A DNA stretch of 64,000 bases from Gallaecimonas mangrovi (GTDB lineage Bacteria; Pseudomonadota; Gammaproteobacteria; Enterobacterales; Gallaecimonadaceae), in contig NZ_CP031416.1 of the NCBI RefSeq assembly GCF_003367375.1, forward strand, positions 3,789,501 to 3,853,500, in the 5' to 3' direction. The position numbers and the translations under genes are program-made. The stretch's first letter is position 1, and every line of letters starts with the position of its first letter. A model generated the notes under the pieces. That model saw only the letters and a list, made by a program, of their open reading frames with translations. It was not told the DNA's origin and did not search any database. Shown here piece by piece: positions 21,946-48,939 of this stretch.

Positions 21946-22413
21946 ATGCAGGGCAATCCAGAGGTTATTGATTACTTGAACATGCTGATCGGCGGCGAGC
22001 TGGCGGCCAGAGATCAGTACCTAATTCATTCCCGCATGTATGAAGACTGGGGCCTGCCCCGGCTTTATGAGCGTATCGACCATGAAATGCAGGAAGAAGC
22101 CAGCCACGCCGACACCATTATTCGCCGGGTACTGTTTTTAGAAGCCACCCCGAACATGGACCGCGACGACTTGGACGTGGGCACTGACGTGGTGTCTTGC
22201 CTCAAGGCCGACCTGAAACTTGAGTACAAGGTGCGTGAGCACCTGGCCAAAGGCATTGAACTTTGTGAGAAAAAGGGCGATTACATTAGCCGCGACATGT
22301 TGCGTGCCCAACTCTCCGACACCGAAGAAGACCATACCTACTGGCTGGAAAAGCAAATTCGCCTTATCGATATGGTAGGGCTGGAAAATTACATTCAGTC
22401 GCAAATGAAGTAA
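21946..22413 (+). CDS. bfr: Bacterioferritin-family ferritin lacking the haem-ligand methionine
   Basis: 155-residue iron-storage protein forming a 24-subunit shell. Ferroxidase ligands are present: E18, E51, H54, E94 and the EEDH segment near 126-129. The first 30 residues follow bacterioferritin exactly in spacing. Met52, the haem ligand of E. coli Bfr, is alanine here ([11 protein letters not shown]). The sequence closely follows Pseudomonas aeruginosa PA4235, once called BfrA and later treated as the haem-free ferritin FtnA. No bfd gene is adjacent. AAAGGAG lies seven bases before the ATG. Confidence 0.88.
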
Positions 22414-39301: not shown

Positions 39302-39943
39302 ATGTTTAGTCATTCTAAAGCCCGCGCATTGGCCTGGCTTATCGGCTTTCATATTCTGGTGATCGCCGCATCCAATTACTTGGTTCAAATCCCCTTTAGT
39401 CTTTTTGGCTTGCACACCACCTGGGGCGCTTTTACCTTTCCCTTTATCTTCTTAGCCACCGACTTAACGGTTCGGTTGCTGGGCGCGGAGCCAGCCAGGC
39501 GGGTGATCTTCTGGGTTATGCTGCCAGCCCTTTTCATTAGCTACGGGGTAAGTGTGGTATTTCCCCATGGCCACTTTGCAGGCCCATCGGCGTTAAGCAC
39601 CCTCAATACCTTTGTGGCGCGTATCGCCTTAGCCTCTTTTCTGGCCTATGTATTGGGGCAGGTTTTGGATGTGCAGGTTTTTAATCGGTTACGGCGGTTA
39701 GGCCCGTGGTGGCTGGCACCTGCCGCTTCAACGGTATTGGGTAACTTGTTTGACACCTTGGTCTTTTTCGGCGGCGCTTTTTATCAAAGTACAGATCCCT
39801 TCATGGCCAGTCACTGGCTGCAAATCGCCTGGATGGACTACGCCTTTAAGCTGCTCGTTAGTCTGGCTTTCTTCCTGCCACTTTATGGGATGCTGTTAAA
39901 TGGCCTGTTGAAGTGGCAGCGTTATCAGCCAACCACTGCCTAA
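39302..39943 (+). CDS. yhhQ: YhhQ queuosine-precursor transporter
   Basis: 213-residue inner-membrane protein with six helices, importing 7-cyano- or 7-aminomethyl-7-deazaguanine for tRNA queuosine synthesis. NYLVQIPFSLFGLHTTWGAFTFPFIFLATDLTVR and LGNLFDTLVFFGGAF-type segments identify the family (the quoted first part is the most diagnostic). The GALTF..F..TD.T.. core is complete. Its last 86 bases overlap the convergent EAL gene. No preQ1 riboswitch is seen upstream. Confidence 0.9.
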   Translation: MFSHSKARALAWLIGFHILVIAASNYLVQIPFSLFGLHTTWGAFTFPFIFLATDLTVRLLGAEPARRVIFWVMLPALFISYGVSVVFPHGHFAGPSALSTLNTFVARIALASFLAYVLGQVLDVQVFNRLRRLGPWWLAPAASTVLGNLFDTLVFFGGAFYQSTDPFMASHWLQIAWMDYAFKLLVSLAFFLPLYGMLLNGLLKWQRYQPTTA

Positions 39944-41469: not shown

Positions 41470-42093
41470 TTAGACCCGCGCTTGGATCAGGTAAACACAG
41501 CGGCGCCCTTCCGACAGAAGGTGTTCTTGTCTTTCGATTTTGGCTTGCTCACCCAAGCATTGGCTAAACAGCGATAGCTCTGAGCGGCAAAACTGCTGGC
41601 ACTGCTGAGCGGCAGTGCAAATAGGGCAGTGATTTTCTATTAGCAGCCATTGGCCTTGACCATCGTATTCAACTTCAGCCATATAACCCTCCGCAGAACG
41701 TAACTGCGCCAACCGGTTAATTTTGGCTTCCAAACTCCCTTCGTTAGCCAATGCCAATTGATAAGCCTCGCGCATTTGCCCCTCGCGATGCTCAATCAGA
41801 GCTTCAAGACCTTGTTCGCCAAAGACACTTTTCACTCCGTCTATTAGTGTAAGTGTCAAATCTGCATGGCGCTCCGGAAAACGCGCATGTCCGGCATCCG
41901 TCAACCGCCACACCCGGGCGGGCCGACCGATACTGCGCTTTTCCATTGAGCTCTCTACCAGCCCTTGCTGCTCGGCTAACAACAGATGCTGACGCGCTCC
42001 CATGGCGGTCATATCCAAGTCAGCCGCCAACGACTGCGCTGTTTGGGCGCCACGGGTTTTCAGAAGATAAAGTATACGATTAATACTGAGCAT
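41470..42093 (-). CDS. Winged-helix repressor with four-cysteine (SufR-like) metal or Fe-S site
   Basis: 207-residue regulator. An N-terminal winged helix (NRILYLLKTRGAQTAQSLAADLDM, ARQHLLLAEQQGLV, GRPARVWRLTDAG) is followed by a C-terminal domain. The cysteines form the pattern C-x2-C-x5-C-x3-C (ENHCPICTAAQQCQQFCR; C156, C159, C165, C169). This resembles SufR-type Fe-S sensing repressors, though the spacing is not the cyanobacterial one. I prefer ATG 42093, which starts the DNA-binding domain; an ATG at 42135 is also possible. It is divergent from ryhB, and the same Fur box lies between them, so iron control of this gene is likely. Confidence 0.75.
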   Translation of the reverse strand: MLSINRILYLLKTRGAQTAQSLAADLDMTAMGARQHLLLAEQQGLVESSMEKRSIGRPARVWRLTDAGHARFPERHADLTLTLIDGVKSVFGEQGLEALIEHREGQMREAYQLALANEGSLEAKINRLAQLRSAEGYMAEVEYDGQGQWLLIENHCPICTAAQQCQQFCRSELSLFSQCLGEQAKIERQEHLLSEGRRCVYLIQARV

Positions 42094-42167
42094 AGGCTCA
42101 TTATGTGCGGGAATAGCGATAAGACTCAACGACATTGAAACCGTGGTGAGAAATTAAACACATCGGC

Positions 42168-42195
42168 TTGACATTTAAATGATAATTATTACTAT
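42168..42195 (+). promoter_or_regulatory. ryhB promoter
   Basis: TTGACA at 42168-42173 and TACTAT at 42190-42195 with a 16-base spacer; transcription should begin at about 42202. Confidence 0.7.
42175..42193. promoter_or_regulatory. Fur box over the ryhB promoter
   Basis: TTAAATGATAATTATTACT matches the 19-base Fur consensus at 13 positions. In the 7-1-7 form it is TGATAAT-T-ATTACTA, 12 of 14. It covers the spacer and -10 region of the ryhB promoter, so Fur with iron would block transcription, and it lies about 80 bases from the divergent regulator start. Confidence 0.8.
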
Positions 42196-42201
42196 TTGAA
42201 T

Positions 42202-42315
42202 GGCGTTTTAAATAACGCACTGATGCAGTCCAGACGCTTTGGCAGCATCGCACGACATTGCTCACATTGCTTCCAATTGGAAAAGGCCGGCTATTTTTTA
42301 GCCGGCTATTTTTTT
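42202..42315 (+). ncRNA. ryhB: RyhB iron-stress small RNA
   Basis: RNA of about 110 bases. The 26 bases at 42250-42275 are, as far as I can recall the sequence, identical to the conserved core of E. coli RyhB (from GCACGACATTG to ATTGCTTCCA), the part that pairs with target mRNAs. A 5' hairpin GCGTT/AACGC (42203-42218) precedes it. A rho-independent terminator GCCGGCTA/TAGCCGGC (42286-42306) with a T tract follows it, as in enterobacterial RyhB. With Hfq it would repress iron-using proteins during iron shortage. The T tract touches the stop codon of the convergent cyclase gene. Confidence 0.92.
42286..42315 (+). terminator. ryhB terminator
   Basis: GCCGGCTA, a five-T loop, TAGCCGGC, then TATTTTTTT. 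The poly-U tail is the expected Hfq site. Confidence 0.88.
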
Positions 42316-44854
42316 AGGAAACATAGCTGCTAGCCTCAAAACGGTTACGCCCTTGGTGCTTGGCGCGATATAACGCCTTGTCGGCCAAATCTAACAGCTG
42401 TTGCGGTTCGCCTATTTGATGGGGAGCACCTGAGGCAATACCAATAGAGACGGTAACTAGTTTATCGATAGGTGAATCAGGGTGGGTAATGGCCGCTTTG
42501 GCCAAGGCCTCCTGAATACTTATCGCCATGGTGCGGGCTTGGTCTAAGTCAGAGCCCGGCAAAATAATGGCAAACTCTTCACCACCAAATCGGGCCGCTA
42601 TCTCACCACTGCGCTTAACCACGTCATGCAAAATGCCGGCAAGTTGTTGCAAACAGCGATCGCCGGCCAAATGTCCCGCGGCGTCATTAAAACGCTTGAA
42701 AAAATCCACATCGAGCATCATTAGCGTTAGCGGCTGCTGGTGGCGAGCGCAGCGCAGCCACTCTTTGTGGAGTTCTTCATCGAAGGTACGGCGGTTAAAA
42801 AGCTGGGTGAGGCCGTCGATACGGGAAAGGGCTTCCAAGCGATCGTTGGCGGCGGCCAACTCTTGGTTACGTTCTGAAAGGGCAACCGTCAGTTCTTGCT
42901 CTCTCGCTTCACTTTGCAGTCGTTCAGTGATGTCTTCTCTGAGAATCAGGAGAAAGCTGTTGTGAAGGCTATCTTCAATAACCGGCACCCTTAAGGTCTT
43001 AAACCAGCGGGGGCCTTGCGGCGTTTGCAAGCACTCTTGGCTGGTTAGTGATGGCTCAGCGCTGTTGAGTGCGGCTTCATCATCCCGGTGCAGCCCCCGG
43101 GCGGTATTTTTATCCATCAAACTAAAATCGTCTTTGCCTTCAATGTCCTGTCGTGAACGGCCAAATAACTTTTCCGATGCCGTGTTAATCCGCCGGTATA
43201 ACAGGTGCGAGGCATCTTTCACCGCCAGGCTCAAAGGCAAGTTTTCAACCAACGAATTAAGAAAATGTTCCCGCTCGCCCAGTTGCTGATTTGCCGCTTC
43301 CAACTCTTGGGTGCGTTTTAGCACCTCTTGGCCCACCACGATGGTTTGCCCTGTAACCAGCAGCACGGTGAACCCCACCAGAGACACCAACAGCAAACCC
43401 CCAACTTCAACTATCCATAGCCCTTCATTGCTCTGCGCCAACACAAAGTGTTCGGGATAATGAAAACGCAGCAGCCAGTCACGCTCACCCACCATGACAT
43501 GGCGCTCAGCCCAAAGCCCGGAACGCTGGCCACGTTCATTGGCCAGTGGCCCTAAAAAATAACTACCGGTTTCGTTATCAAGGGCGGAAATTTCCAAAGA
43601 AGACGCGTTAAAGACCCCAGTAAGCACACGCACTTCGAAGTCAGCATCGATAACCGCCATGATGTAACCCATTAACTGATGCTGAGTGTCACGCACCGCG
43701 CGAAAGGCAAAGAAGTCTTGGTGCTTGCCATCAAGATAGTGAAAACGCGACGGTAGCCCTGCCAGCACTGACTTGTACTGATGACTGGCTTTATTCATTG
43801 CCGTCGCCAGCATTGGGTTTTCTTCTGGCAGTCCGCCTTTGGGAAAGGGAAATTCGCCCTGCGAGGCCATGTATAAAACGGGGTAATAACGCTGCGCGTT
43901 AGGGGCTGCAACCCACTGGCCTGCTTTGTTTTTTATAGAAAACTGATAAGGCCGTCCTAGCTCCTTACCGGCTACGGCTTCGACATTGGCCCGTTGCGCC
44001 TGCGTGACCAAGGGCAGCCATGCCAGGGCATGTAACCCCGGCATGTCTCGCAGCAATTCGTCGGTAACCCGGTGAAACTCCTCACGGGAGACAAAATCGG
44101 ACGCCTGGAATACCTGAGCAAGACTAAACAGCGATTGCAGATAGTGTTCGGCTTTCGCACTCAATGCCGCGCTGGCCACGTCTGACTGGCGGGCCAACTC
44201 CTGCACAACCTGTTTGCGCTGATTGGTGGCCATATTTTGAATGCTCCACTGCAAGGCTGTTAGCAGTGTCAGCATAATAACGGCAGTCCACACAATGCGA
44301 TTGCGCGCAGCATCGTTGAACCACAGCAAACTTAAAGGCGCTATCAGCGCCACCCCTAGCGCATCTCCTGTCCACCAGGTTAACCATCCGGCTGCTGTGG
44401 TACCGCTAGGGTTGATATTCGCAAGGAACAAGGTGAGCTGACCAATGCTGGCAGCAATGATGGTGCTAACCAGCGCCCCTTTGACGATAAAGTGGAGTAT
44501 TTCTTTAAAATCAAGTAGCTGCCAGTCTCGCCGAAAACAAAGCAGCCAGCCGCCACCCACAGCCTGTAAGCTGGCCCCAATGCCAATGGCAAGGGGCACC
44601 AGCCACGAACGGACATTGCCGTCCAGTAACGCCTGCGGTTCACCCACAATCAAGGCGTTGGTAAGAAAAGACCCCACCAAAACCCCGAGCCACATGCTCG
44701 GACCCCACCACAATACGGCAACCAAAGCCACGCCAGCGGCGGGCCAAACAGGGCTGGCATAGCCAGGGGGCTGAGCCACTTGCAGCCCTAGCCAGCCCAT
44801 CAAAAAATAAGCCAGGGCGACCGTTAATAAACGCTGTAAAAGCGTACTGTTCAA
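42314..44854 (-). CDS. MASE1-CHASE-PAS-GGDEF diguanylate cyclase
   Basis: 846-residue membrane receptor. MASE1 membrane domain (1-220; SPVWPAAGVALVAVLWWGP), periplasmic CHASE domain (about 255-470; LPLVTQAQR, FPFPKGGLPEENPM), a further helix, a PAS domain (about 535-660), a short coiled coil and a GGDEF domain. The GGDEF part has LTQLFNRRTFDEEL, LDVDFFKRFND and an intact ARFGGEEFAIIL, with RSGE at the I-site position instead of RxxD. CHASE domains bind small extracellular ligands. The start is TTG 44854 with AGAGGA six bases upstream. It converges on ryhB. Confidence 0.9.
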   Translation of the reverse strand: MNSTLLQRLLTVALAYFLMGWLGLQVAQPPGYASPVWPAAGVALVAVLWWGPSMWLGVLVGSFLTNALIVGEPQALLDGNVRSWLVPLAIGIGASLQAVGGGWLLCFRRDWQLLDFKEILHFIVKGALVSTIIAASIGQLTLFLANINPSGTTAAGWLTWWTGDALGVALIAPLSLLWFNDAARNRIVWTAVIMLTLLTALQWSIQNMATNQRKQVVQELARQSDVASAALSAKAEHYLQSLFSLAQVFQASDFVSREEFHRVTDELLRDMPGLHALAWLPLVTQAQRANVEAVAGKELGRPYQFSIKNKAGQWVAAPNAQRYYPVLYMASQGEFPFPKGGLPEENPMLATAMNKASHQYKSVLAGLPSRFHYLDGKHQDFFAFRAVRDTQHQLMGYIMAVIDADFEVRVLTGVFNASSLEISALDNETGSYFLGPLANERGQRSGLWAERHVMVGERDWLLRFHYPEHFVLAQSNEGLWIVEVGGLLLVSLVGFTVLLVTGQTIVVGQEVLKRTQELEAANQQLGEREHFLNSLVENLPLSLAVKDASHLLYRRINTASEKLFGRSRQDIEGKDDFSLMDKNTARGLHRDDEAALNSAEPSLTSQECLQTPQGPRWFKTLRVPVIEDSLHNSFLLILREDITERLQSEAREQELTVALSERNQELAAANDRLEALSRIDGLTQLFNRRTFDEELHKEWLRCARHQQPLTLMMLDVDFFKRFNDAAGHLAGDRCLQQLAGILHDVVKRSGEIAARFGGEEFAIILPGSDLDQARTMAISIQEALAKAAITHPDSPIDKLVTVSIGIASGAPHQIGEPQQLLDLADKALYRAKHQGRNRFEASSYVS

Positions 44855-44874: not shown

Positions 44875-45525
44875 TTAAGCGCGAGCAAGTACCGCTTTCA
44901 CTAGCTTATCGATACCACTTTTTGCCTCCAGAATGGACGAGGCCAGCATGTAGGCAGGGGTAGAAATCACCTTAAACTGCTCATCAATGCAGATCTCGTC
45001 CACCGCGCAAATTTGGTGCTCTCCACCCATGGCATTAAAAGCACTCGCCGTATCAGCATCGTTACCAATAGTACCTTTTACCCCCTTGCCATAAACCTTA
45101 GGAAGCATGGCTGGTGCAATACAGATATACCCGGCGACCTTATGTTTGCTCGCAAAAGCCTGACAAGCCTTCAACACATCGGCTTGCACCTGGCAGTCGG
45201 CACCCTGGAATGCAAAATCAGAGAGGTTTTTGGCAGCACCAAAGCCGCCCGGTAAAATAAGCGCATCAAAATCGTCGGCATTTAGTTGCGCCACATTTTT
45301 GATATCGCCACGGCAAATACGAGCAGCTTCCACTAACACATTACGCGATTGCGCTAGTGGCTCGCCGGAAATGTGATTGAGTACGTGGTGTTGTTCAACA
45401 TCAGGCGCAAAGCACTGCACCTTGGCTCCGGCCTCCGCTAGCGCCAGCAGCGTCAGTACTGACTCATAAATTTCAGCGCCATCGAAAACACCACAACCAC
45501 TTAAAATAACGGCAACTTTCTTCAT
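44875..45525 (-). CDS. elbB: ElbB glyoxalase (DJ-1/PfpI superfamily)
   Basis: 216-residue cytosolic protein. KKVAVILSGCGVFDGAEIYE at the start, DFDALILPGGFGAAKNLSDFA, and the nucleophile-elbow cysteine in AGYICIAPAML match ElbB, called an isoprenoid biosynthesis protein and shown in E. coli to have glyoxalase activity. Length is the same as in E. coli. A strong AAAGGAGG lies six bases before the ATG. It stands 20 bases upstream of the MASE1 cyclase gene on the same strand and may be co-transcribed with it. Confidence 0.92.
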   Translation of the reverse strand: MKKVAVILSGCGVFDGAEIYESVLTLLALAEAGAKVQCFAPDVEQHHVLNHISGEPLAQSRNVLVEAARICRGDIKNVAQLNADDFDALILPGGFGAAKNLSDFAFQGADCQVQADVLKACQAFASKHKVAGYICIAPAMLPKVYGKGVKGTIGNDADTASAFNAMGGEHQICAVDEICIDEQFKVISTPAYMLASSILEAKSGIDKLVKAVLARA

Positions 45526-45688
45526 CTTAGCCTCCTTTCGCTACGCGTCCATGGTAGCGGCTGACGGCGAGCACTGTCACCAACAGCAAAGTTTTCTAAA
45601 ACGCTATTGCACATCTTTTGCTCGGTGTTAGACTGAACTCTTGTTGTCGCGTCACCAAAAACAACAAAAAAGACCTGAGGGAACGAGG

Positions 45689-45697
45689 TTATTCACA
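45689..45697 (+). promoter_or_regulatory. DnaA box 1 upstream of polA
   Basis: TTATTCACA, a perfect match to the TTATNCACA consensus, 224 bases before the polA start codon. Confidence 0.6.
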
Positions 45698-45833
45698 AGC
45701 CAGAAGCGGCTGTCCACACTTCTTAGCTCTCGTCCAGGCATCGCTGCAGGCCAGTATCTATGCAGCTTCATCAATTCGTACAGATTTTAGACACTGCTTT
45801 GCCGGTGGATACACCTGTACTTATTCAACAGAC

Positions 45834-45842
45834 TTATCCACA
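45834..45842 (+). promoter_or_regulatory. DnaA box 2 upstream of polA
   Basis: TTATCCACA, the high-affinity R1-type box, 79 bases before the polA start codon and in the same orientation as box 1. Confidence 0.65.
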
Positions 45843-45920
45843 GCTTTGTGTCATCCATTCCGTTTCTTCCCACCCGAGGCTATGGCATCCTTGGCGCAAA
45901 CAAGGAATCTGGATCTCATC

Positions 45921-48698
45921 ATGGCAAGCATCCCCGAAAATCCTCTTATTCTGGTTGACGGCTCATCCTATCTTTACCGCGCTTATTACGCGCCGCCGCA
46001 TCTAACCAATTCCCAAGGCGAACCCACGGGGGCGGTGTATGGCGTAATTAACATGCTCAAAAGCTTGCTACGCCAATTTAAACCAACAGAAATGGCTGTG
46101 GTTTTTGATGCCAAAGGCAAAACCTTTCGGGACGAACTTTTCGAGCAATACAAAGCCCATCGCCCTTCCATGCCTGACGATCTTCGCAGTCAAGTAGCAC
46201 CGCTTCATGCGTTAGTAAAAGCCATGGGTCTGCCCCTTATCATTATCGAAGGGGTCGAGGCCGATGACGTCATTGGCACCCTTGCCAAAAAAGCCTCCGC
46301 CGACGGCCGCCACGTGCTTATCTCTACCGGAGATAAAGATATGGCACAGCTGGTGGACGATAAGGTGACCTTGATCAATACCATGACTAATACCGTGCTG
46401 GACCCAGCCGGTGTTGCTGAAAAATTTGGCGTGGGGCCAGAGCTTATCATCGACTTTTTGGCGCTGATGGGAGACAAGGTTGACAACATCCCAGGTGTTC
46501 CCGGGGTTGGCGAAAAAACCGCTCTGGGCTTACTGCAGGGCCTTGGCGGTATCGATACGCTTTATCAAAACCTCGATAAAGTGGCGACCTTAGATTTTCG
46601 TGGTGCCAAAACCATGGGTAAAAAGCTGGCCGACAATGAAGAACAGGCCCGGCTTTCTTACTTGTTGGCCACCATCAAAACAGACGTTGATTTAAGTGAA
46701 GAACAACTCGACCTGGCCATTAAACCTGAGGACACAGATGCCTTAGTCGAGTGGTACGGCAAGATGGAGTTTCGCCGCTGGCTAGCCGACGTACTGGATG
46801 GCAAAGCACCAGAGCAAGCTGCAGGCCCAGCCAACGCGGCAAAAGATGAAGCACAAGACGCGGTTGCAGACCCTGCCGGCATTGACCGTAGTGACTACGA
46901 GTTGGTCACCACAGAGAAGGCACTGCTTGGCTGGGTAGAAAAACTCAAAAAGGCAGCGCTTTTTTCCTTCGATACCGAAACCACTGCGCTTGATTATATG
47001 GTGGCCGACCTGGTGGGCTTTTCAGTGGCGCTTGATGATGGCCAAGCGGCCTATATTCCCTTTGGTCACAGTCCATTAGATGAAATTGAACAGCTACCCC
47101 GCGACACCGTGCTGGATGCCTTTCGGGATTTACTGCAAAGCGAAAAGCACCTAAAGGTTGGGCAGAACCTCAAATATGACATGAGCGTATTAGCCAATCA
47201 CGGTATTACCTTGGCCGGTATCGCTTTTGACACCATGTTGGAAAGTTACATTTTCAACTCTGTGGCAGGCCGCCACGACATGGACAGCTTGTCTTTGAAG
47301 TATTTGGCCCATAAAGCCATCAGCTTTGAAGACATTGCCGGCAAAGGCGCCAAACAAATTACCTTCGACCAGGTGGCCATTAAAGATGCCGCCGTTTACG
47401 CCGCCGAAGATGCCGACGTCACCATGAAACTGCATCAGGTGCTGTGGCCAAAACTGGAAGCGGAGGCGCCACTTAAAAAGGTATTCCAAGAGATTGAATT
47501 ACCGCTGGTACCGGTGCTGTCACGTATGGAGCGCAGCGGCGTGTTAATAGACAAGACTCTGCTTGGCAAACAAAGCGAGGAGCTAGCCACACGCATTGCT
47601 GAGCTGGAGAAAAAGGCCTTTGATATTGCGGGCGAAGAATTCAACCTCGGCAGCCCCAAACAACTACAGGCTATTTTGTTTGAAAAAATGGGCATTAAAC
47701 CGCTGAAAAAAACACCTTCAGGGGTACCTTCAGTGGCAGAGGAAGTACTGCAAGAACTGGCCCACGACTACCCGCTGCCGAAAGTCATTATTGAGTATCG
47801 TGGCCTTGCCAAGCTGAAATCCACCTACACCGATAAGCTGCCACAGCTTATTCATGGGAAAACCGGCAGAGTGCATACCAGCTATCACCAAGCAGTGACA
47901 GCAACCGGCCGCTTATCTTCATCCGACCCAAACCTGCAAAATATCCCGGTACGTACCGAAGAAGGCAGGCGTATTCGCCAAGCCTTTATCGCCCCTAAAG
48001 GCCGGGTGCTACTGGCCGCTGACTATAGCCAAATTGAACTTAGGATCATGGCCCATTTGTCCAGTGATAAAGGCTTGTTGGCTGCCTTTGCCGAAGGCAA
48101 AGACATCCACGCCGCCACCGCCGCCGAAGTCTTTGGCGTCAAACTGGATGCGGTAACCAATGAACAGCGCCGCCGTGCCAAGGCCATTAACTTTGGGCTT
48201 ATCTACGGCATGTCAGCCTTCGGCTTGGCCCGCCAGCTCGACATTGGCCGCAATGAAGCCCAAGGCTATATGAACACCTACTTTGAACGCTATCCAGGCG
48301 TTCTGGAATATATGGAAAGCACCCGTCAAAAGGCAGAAGAGAAAGGTTACGTTGAAACGCTCTTTGGCCGCCGCCTATATCTGCCCGAGATCACCGCCCG
48401 CAACCAGGCCCGTAAAAAGGCCGCCGAAAGGGCCGCCATCAATGCCCCCATGCAAGGTACCGCTGCCGATATCATCAAAAAGGCGATGATTGCCGTTGAT
48501 GAATGGATCACCACGCAAGCGGCCGACAAGGTGACGCTATTGATGCAGGTGCACGATGAATTGGTGCTGGAAGTTGATGAAAACTATGCCAAAGAAGCGG
48601 CGGCTAAGATCAGTGAACTGATGCAAAACGCCGCTGACTTAAAGGTGCCGTTAGTGGTTGATCCCGGCATGGGCATGACTTGGGACGAAGCTCATTAA
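45921..48698 (+). CDS. polA: DNA polymerase I
   Basis: 925-residue repair and Okazaki-fragment polymerase. 5'-nuclease domain (1-320; [54 protein letters not shown]). A 3'-5' exonuclease domain follows with all acidic residues kept ([25 protein letters not shown]). The polymerase domain has motif [17 protein letters not shown], motif [17 protein letters not shown] and motif [11 protein letters not shown]. The start at ATG 45921 ([14 protein letters not shown]) matches E. coli [14 protein letters not shown] and gives the usual length. DnaA boxes lie upstream and Spot 42 follows, as in enterobacteria. Confidence 0.96.
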
Positions 48699-48805: not shown

Positions 48806-48834
48806 TTTTAATCTGAGCAGCAGGCCATTACACT
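48806..48834 (+). promoter_or_regulatory. spf promoter
   Basis: TTTTAA (48806-48811), 17 bases, TACACT (48829-48834), ending six bases before the Spot 42 5' end. Confidence 0.6.
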
Positions 48835-48840
48835 GACGGC

Positions 48841-48939
48841 GTAGGGTACAAAAGACGCTTTCCTAGCAAAGTGTCTTTGTTTCACGTAGTGGATTTGGCT
48901 ACATAGCCGCCTCGCTCACAGCAGCGGGGCGTTTTTTTT
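48841..48939 (+). ncRNA. spf: Spot 42 small RNA
   Basis: About 99 bases. The 5' end GTAGGGTACA is identical to E. coli Spot 42. The middle has TTTCACGTAGTGGATTTGGCT, close to the E. coli segment with TTCACGTAATCGGATTTGGC, and TAGCCGCC follows. The terminator CGCCTCGCT/AGCGGGGCG with eight T ends it. The position between polA and engB is the classical one. Spot 42 works with Hfq to repress secondary-carbon and TCA-related genes and is itself repressed by cAMP-CRP. The unstructured target-pairing regions differ partly, so the target set may differ from E. coli. Confidence 0.93.

Follow-up and report, generated by a model that had tools for sequence, protein, structure and literature searches.

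A RyhB-type small RNA gene with a Fur-box-like site on its promoter in Gallaecimonas mangrovi

The window analysed here, a stretch of 64,000 nucleotides of Gallaecimonas mangrovi (contig NZ_CP031416.1), contains a small RNA gene of the plus strand between two genes of the minus strand. Upstream and divergent from it lies a SufR-like regulator (41470-42135, minus strand), which matches TIGR02702 with 115 bits against a cut-off of 178.8, that is, below the level of a SufR equivalog. Downstream and convergent is a MASE1-CHASE-PAS-GGDEF diguanylate cyclase (42314-44854, minus strand), whose stop codon overlaps the U tail of the RNA by 2 bases. Farther out are yhhQ, coding for a queuosine precursor transporter (39302-39943, plus strand), on one side, and elbB (44875-45525, minus strand) and polA (45618-48698, plus strand; the start of the listed ORF is probably too long) on the other. 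As in Escherichia coli, a Spot 42 (spf)-like RNA is found downstream of polA (48831-48938, plus strand; 43.1 bits against an Rfam cut-off of 80, E 6.5e-5). It is not part of the ryhB finding, and the result is a cyclase-elbB-polA segment flanked by two metabolic small RNAs.

The promoter of the RNA (42168-42195, plus strand) is of the sigma-70 type and consists of a -35 box TTGACA (42168-42173), a 16-base spacer and a -10 box TACTAT (42190-42195), and its TTGAC is unchanged in the five genomes of the genus. Lying on this promoter, a Fur-box-like site, TGATAATTATTACTA (42180-42194, plus strand), shows 2 mismatches to TGATAATNATTATCA and is the best of the three sites with up to 3 mismatches in the 64 kb, where a mean of 1.07 is expected and three or more occurred in 11 of 100 shuffles. 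Against the 19-base consensus it matches 13 positions, and since ten places in the window, itself included, reach that level, the site is modest by itself. Its strength lies in its occurrence at one and the same alignment column in the five genomes of the genus, with 12-17 of 19 positions matched. On the minus strand, a promoter-like match (TTTAAA/AATAAT, 42185-42212) overlaps the Fur-like site, so that Fur might control the SufR-like regulator as well.

The transcript would be about 114 nt long (42202-42315, plus strand), its 5′ end having been placed by eye through alignment to E. coli RyhB. From 5′ to 3′, and always on the plus strand, it comprises a first hairpin (GCGTT...AACGC, 42203-42218), a second one (GATGC...GCATC, 42222-42249) with an invariant stem and a variable loop in the five genomes, a 26-base core predicted to pair with mRNAs (42250-42275), a short hairpin TTCC-AATT-GGAA (42271-42282) that takes in the last bases of the core and keeps both arms invariant in the five genomes, and a Rho-independent terminator with a U tail (42285-42315, stem 42285-42307). 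The whole RNA folds with -38.4 kcal/mol (z -3.92), and none of 200 dinucleotide shuffles was equally stable. In the alignment of the genus, promoter, stems and core are conserved amid a changing region, the core being unbroken in four of five genomes and carrying a 2-base insertion in the remaining one (G060). Sequence changes among the five sequences of the genus lend weak support to the first hairpin, and, given that the 5′ stems hardly vary within the genus, covariation is little informative on either of them. A wider alignment was made of 24 chosen homologues of the order; it excludes the second copy of tandem pairs, loci whose 3′ part is long and some near-duplicates, and the stretch of the window was lengthened for it. 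In it, 94% of the cells of the terminator stem are paired, six of its seven pairs show double changes, and its covariation score was matched by none of 500 shuffles, while no variation is seen in 16 of the 26 columns of the core. A conserved peptide like the RyhP of E. coli was also considered and rejected, as the ATG of the second hairpin leads, by eye, to an early stop in G078 and to another frame in G060.

The longest stretch in common with the annotated ryhB of E. coli K-12 is exactly 26 bases, GCACGACATTGCTCACATTGCTTCCA (window 42250-42275, RyhB 34-59), so that the conserved mRNA-pairing core agrees in 26 of 26 bases. The Rfam model of RyhB, RF00057, gives the locus 48.8 bits, below its gathering cut-off of 55, with an E value of 5.5e-6 when the window is compared with 4227 families, and the gene was overlooked because this score is slightly short of what standard annotation requires. 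Each of the five genomes of this one-genus family has one RF00057 match, above the cut-off in one of them, so the gathering cut-off hides probable orthologues in the other four. Such a cut-off serves annotation and does not describe a biological property. A profile independent of the genus, model R2, was built from 19 homologues of other genera with the own genus left out; with it the window reaches 64.7 bits (E 5.2e-10), the scores of the four congeners range from 53.7 to 58.8, and the 504 kb searched, 464 kb of them from the own genome, yielded nothing further up to E 1.

PrrF is the pseudomonad counterpart of RyhB, and its model, RF00444, also matches the locus (42168-42314, 30.7 bits). Nevertheless, this match stems from the promoter/Fur site and the terminator, not from the RNA body, and stays far from its cut-off of 90 bits, with an E value of 0.31 over the window, whereas the 26-base core belongs to RyhB and the R2 score likewise speaks heavily against PrrF. 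The chance that the locus encodes a PrrF-like RNA instead of RyhB is therefore negligible. The sub-cut-off Rfam score, the imperfect Fur-like site and the core insertion of G060 could alternatively point to a decayed or unexpressed remnant of ryhB. This explanation is very improbable, as the promoter, the stems and the terminator are retained in the five species, and the unbroken core in four of them, while the flanks diverge, and as the complementary sites of the targets discussed below are retained too.

We hold that the positional, phylogenetic and target evidence outweighs the RF00057 score, and that the locus is a RyhB homologue and very probably an orthologue. The explanation that best accounts for all these data, and which we regard as highly probable, is a ryhB gene that would be repressed by Fur and would spare iron by the pairing of its core with iron-protein mRNAs. 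It is a real and functional-looking gene but an ordinary one, a local version of RyhB with a small, testable twist in its target sites. The initial annotation had claimed a RyhB homologue with its own Fur box, and the core, model R2 and the five genomes of the family bear it out, the box as a Fur-box-like site. The 26-base identity with E. coli RyhB, the TTGACA/TACTAT promoter with the overlapping Fur-like site, the terminator with its U tail and the two neighbours, the SufR-like regulator and the diguanylate cyclase, were all recovered, and its single 5′ hairpin became two. Its Rfam check, taken to the letter, would dismiss the identification on a score below threshold; the homology still holds.

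The gene order in the genus is yhhQ, an EAL protein gene (in the window and in G015), the SufR-like regulator, the RNA, the cyclase, elbB and polA. In G060, yhhQ, the regulator and the RNA are kept, a GST-family gene occupies the place of the cyclase, a homologue of the latter lies about 6.7 kb further on, and there is no elbB or polA within 10 kb of the RNA. The SufR-like gene adjoins the RNA in five of five loci of the genus and in none of 19 loci of other families (cited here by our own f numbers), and the cyclase in four of five and, again, none of 19. On the other hand, yhhQ and/or polA adjoin the RNA in 13 of these 19 loci (f2, f6, f11, f13, f16, f21 and f25): polA in f2, f11, f13, f16 (three of four loci), f21 and one of the two f25 loci, and yhhQ in f2, f6 and f25, with elbB as a neighbour in f16 (two of four) and f25. 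None of yhhQ, polA, elbB, the SufR-like gene or the cyclase was found within the fetched stretch at f5, f18, f27 and one f16 locus. In f3 (L171), RF00057 gives a weak match (E 0.0046), which is doubtful because the core search found no copy there. These counts indicate a locus common to several families, anchored by polA and including yhhQ, whereas the SufR-like and cyclase neighbours look lineage-specific. The position is not shared by the other six loci or by E. coli, whose ryhB lies between yhhX and yhhY. The recurrence of the yhhQ-RyhB-polA neighbourhood across the order makes it a useful guide beside the score, and a related observation is that the RyhB of Shewanella was found through synteny with Vibrio cholerae (PMC2964681, excerpt).

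The terminator does end at the stop codon of the convergent cyclase gene, as the initial annotation had noted, and the RNA overlaps the convergent ORF by 2 bases in four of the five genomes and by none in the fifth, whatever the neighbour. An RNA acting mainly in cis, either as an antisense or as a common terminator for the cyclase mRNA, would be compatible with this arrangement. However, the convergent gene of G060 is a GST-family gene, its cyclase homologue being about 6.7 kb away, and therefore the antisense pairing is not conserved; moreover, the core fits trans targets, and the two genes seem to abut because the U tail and the A that follows it make up a stop codon (TTA in reverse). A mainly cis-acting RNA is thus very unlikely, and the antisense interplay with the cyclase mRNA that had been suggested comes down to a 2-base overlap. 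The convergent mRNA may end at this terminator as well; the case for antisense control of the cyclase is weak, and a common terminator is the simpler view. The preferred reading, a RyhB that would pair with distant mRNAs, leads to the question of its targets.

Candidate mRNAs, among them the classical RyhB targets, were scored through the accessibility-corrected pairing of the core only with positions -70 to +35 of the start codons, a score used instead of unrestricted duplex prediction, which produced long uninformative helices. For the background, 464 kb of the own genome supplied 333 gene starts (own ribosome-site rule, frames of at least 120 aa), and five sdhD loci (L078-L082), a truncated ferritin locus (L090) and an extra LeuC-like gene of G015 (L144) were left out of the scoring. 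In the species of the window (G000), GAGCAATGTCGTG covers the Shine-Dalgarno and the GTG start of acnA, with 13 unbroken predicted pairs and -19.7 kcal/mol, and none of the 333 background starts was as good; the corresponding numbers in the other four genomes were 1, 8, 8 and 92, the last in G060. For the Fe-SOD gene, 7, 8, 10, 13 and 17 background starts were as good or better in the five genomes, and for sdhC 8, 8, 8, 8 and 10. The result for acnB was middling, with 1, 22, 22, 36 (G000) and 51 (G078), and its best-scoring site in the species of the window lies inside the coding start (+6 to +27). Other genes did not stand out among the 333: a second SOD (252 and 280 as good), LeuC (127-292), AcnD, first labelled AcnX (170-314), Bfr1 (63-329, six genes) and Bfr2 (218 and 267), although bfr is a classical target. 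Complementarity is hence found for the Fe-SOD and other iron-protein mRNAs, and not for the Bfr genes. E. coli likewise has the sdhC site, GTGGGC, and the acnB site, GTCGTGC at the start, and the encoded proteins are 70% (Fe-SOD, to SodB), 68% (AcnA), 81% (AcnB) and 68% (SdhC) identical to those of E. coli, the Fe-SOD scoring above the NCBIfam [Fe] cut-off and the second SOD best with [Mn], below its cut-off.

Mean energies over the genomes as low as those of the real core were reached by none of 60 shuffled cores for AcnA, Fe-SOD and Dps, by one for AcnB and by two for SdhC, as compared to 16 for Bfr1, 40 for LeuC, 41 for AcnD and 59 for the second SOD. The four-target set AcnA, AcnB, Fe-SOD and SdhC, assembled after some of the single results were known and without Bfr, has a mean of -13.4 against -8.2 (sd 1.0) for the 60 shuffled cores, none of them as low. 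The score was checked on E. coli, where acnA, sodB, sdhC, sdhD and acnB, taken as positive controls, gave -10.6 to -15.0 and five other genes 0 to -6.1. The top scorers of the background include unrelated genes, several with ATGAGC starts, so that a lone rank of 2-3% is weak evidence by itself. When the own genome was searched with a long anti-core pattern, 11 sites besides the gene itself came up, versus two for the reversed control, and by eye none of the 11 was at a convincing gene start. A Dps-like gene (L092-L096), with 7, 8, 10, 13 and 57 of the 333 starts as good, nearly equals the classical targets and, judging by its complementarity, is a possible extra target of RyhB. About 20 kb from the RNA, the window also contains a ferritin-family gene (about 21967-22374, plus strand; G000:C1:3811467-3811874), which is not a predicted target.

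The case of Fe-SOD has a peculiarity, as its site begins 35-51 nt ahead of the start codon, away from the ribosome site. In each of the five genomes the distance from a -10-like hexamer, TACAAT, to the beginning of this site is exactly 7 bases, and in the species of the window the hexamer forms a promoter-like match with TTCACA. By our own estimate, around two chance occurrences of the 11-mer GAGCAATGTCG are expected in a genome of this size. Because the site directly follows the promoter match, the RNA would pair with the 5′ end of the Fe-SOD mRNA. It can be tentatively proposed that RyhB in this genus keeps the control of the TCA cycle (acnA, sdhC and acnB) and silences Fe-SOD through the first 11-14 nucleotides of its transcript instead of the ribosome-binding site, a possibility that we consider rather less probable than its opposite. 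If true, a 5′-terminal site would imply either a block of ribosome standby or an altered decay dependent on the 5′ end, and its position at the 5′ end of the transcript is a testable statement.

In the relatives of E. coli, RyhB turns off iron-hungry enzymes under iron scarcity, and a similar pathway may be envisaged for this lineage, all five genomes of which contain hfq and genes with a FUR domain. Under high iron, Fur loaded with iron would sit on the promoter and repress the RNA, and upon iron loss the RNA of about 114 nt would be made. The core, with the help of Hfq, would then pair with the mRNAs of dispensable iron proteins. On acnA it would cover both the Shine-Dalgarno sequence and the GTG start codon, on sdhC and acnB the region of the start, and on the Fe-SOD transcript, if the promoter match is correct, the first bases. 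Finally, translation of the targets would halt and the messages would decay, with the consequent sparing of iron. The sequence, homology, synteny and pairing potential behind this pathway were obtained by computation; the expression of the RNA, its dependence on Fur and Hfq and the repression of its targets may be expected by analogy with the RyhB family.

Like RyhB of E. coli K-12, the RNA has the 26-base core, a Fur-box-like site on the promoter, a U-tailed terminator and pairing potential at the acnA, acnB, sdhC and Fe-SOD mRNAs. It differs in its length (about 114 nt, compared to 95 nt annotated in E. coli), in the second 5′ hairpin and the TTCC/GGAA hairpin after the core, in its yhhQ/polA instead of yhhX/yhhY locus, and in the Fe-SOD site, which lies in the leader (-40 to -30) and not across the start codon. 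The RyhB of Shewanella oneidensis, according to the excerpt of PMC2964681, was likewise missed by BLAST and by the Rfam model of 2010, was found by synteny and core, and has a Fur box. Its transcript is longer (168 nt), and its overexpression represses sodB. The same excerpt names bfr, sdh, acnA and sodB as targets of RyhB, and in Shewanella it describes acnA and sdhA as unaffected, with no likely pairing noted, whereas pairing with acnA and sdhC is predicted here. It is another testable statement that this lineage possesses the TCA branch of the RyhB regulon, which that work reports to be missing in Shewanella. V. cholerae RyhB shares the core and is 215 nt long (PMC2964681, excerpt), and the f21 loci, Vibrionaceae by inference, have polA just downstream, as at this locus. 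In the case of HrrF of Haemophilus influenzae, the title of PMC4144887 presents it as the Fur-regulated small RNA of that species.

A last question is related to the range of RyhB, which the initial annotation thought to be extended by this gene. This was overstated. Of the 295 genomes sampled from the order, probably the broad Enterobacterales of GTDB, 116 have an RF00057 match (E of 0.01 or less), above the cut-off in 79; the 116 belong to 29 of 99 genera, and the weakest matches may be chance. RyhB-type RNAs beyond enterobacteria and vibrios are in print for Shewanella (PMC2964681, excerpt) and, as HrrF, for Haemophilus (PMC4144887, excerpt). Within this range, the f18 family is closely related to E. 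coli: the best rows for its ryhB locus, L005, show about 80% identity to the E. coli yhhX-yhhY region over 76% of the query. In a draw from the class, RF00057 matched one of 368 other genomes, at least three of which belong to the same order, and that match (L065) lacks the core by reading. A further model, R1, had hits in four of these 368, of which one belongs to the same order: three share only a terminator, and the fourth has a core-like stretch in a 299-aa frame on the other strand and no terminator. Both class searches used strict filters, under which weak matches are lost, and with them no credible RyhB was found outside the order in the class sample. Regarding the literature, the titles retrieved for Gallaecimonas with RyhB comprised nothing but one on an E. 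coli overlapping gene, and none was found on RyhB homologs in Cellvibrionales. The core search gave no match in plasmids, and in a phage collection four records have only the 26-base core in common, two of them annotated RyhB in Salmonella contigs. The core also occurs in nine IMG/VR viral contigs (L052-L060), all of which contain RyhB-type RNAs, by reading of a single different 5′ architecture. In eight of the nine, no more than about 330 bases separate the RNA from one end of the fetched stretch, which would be the picture if proviruses abutted a ryhB gene. Two RyhB-type cores in tandem are present at seven loci (L163, L164, L170, L172, L175, L176 and L179; f13, f2, f6 and f16), and L050/L175 shows a run of short GACATTGCTATGCTCTCTAATAATTAGGGG-like copies.
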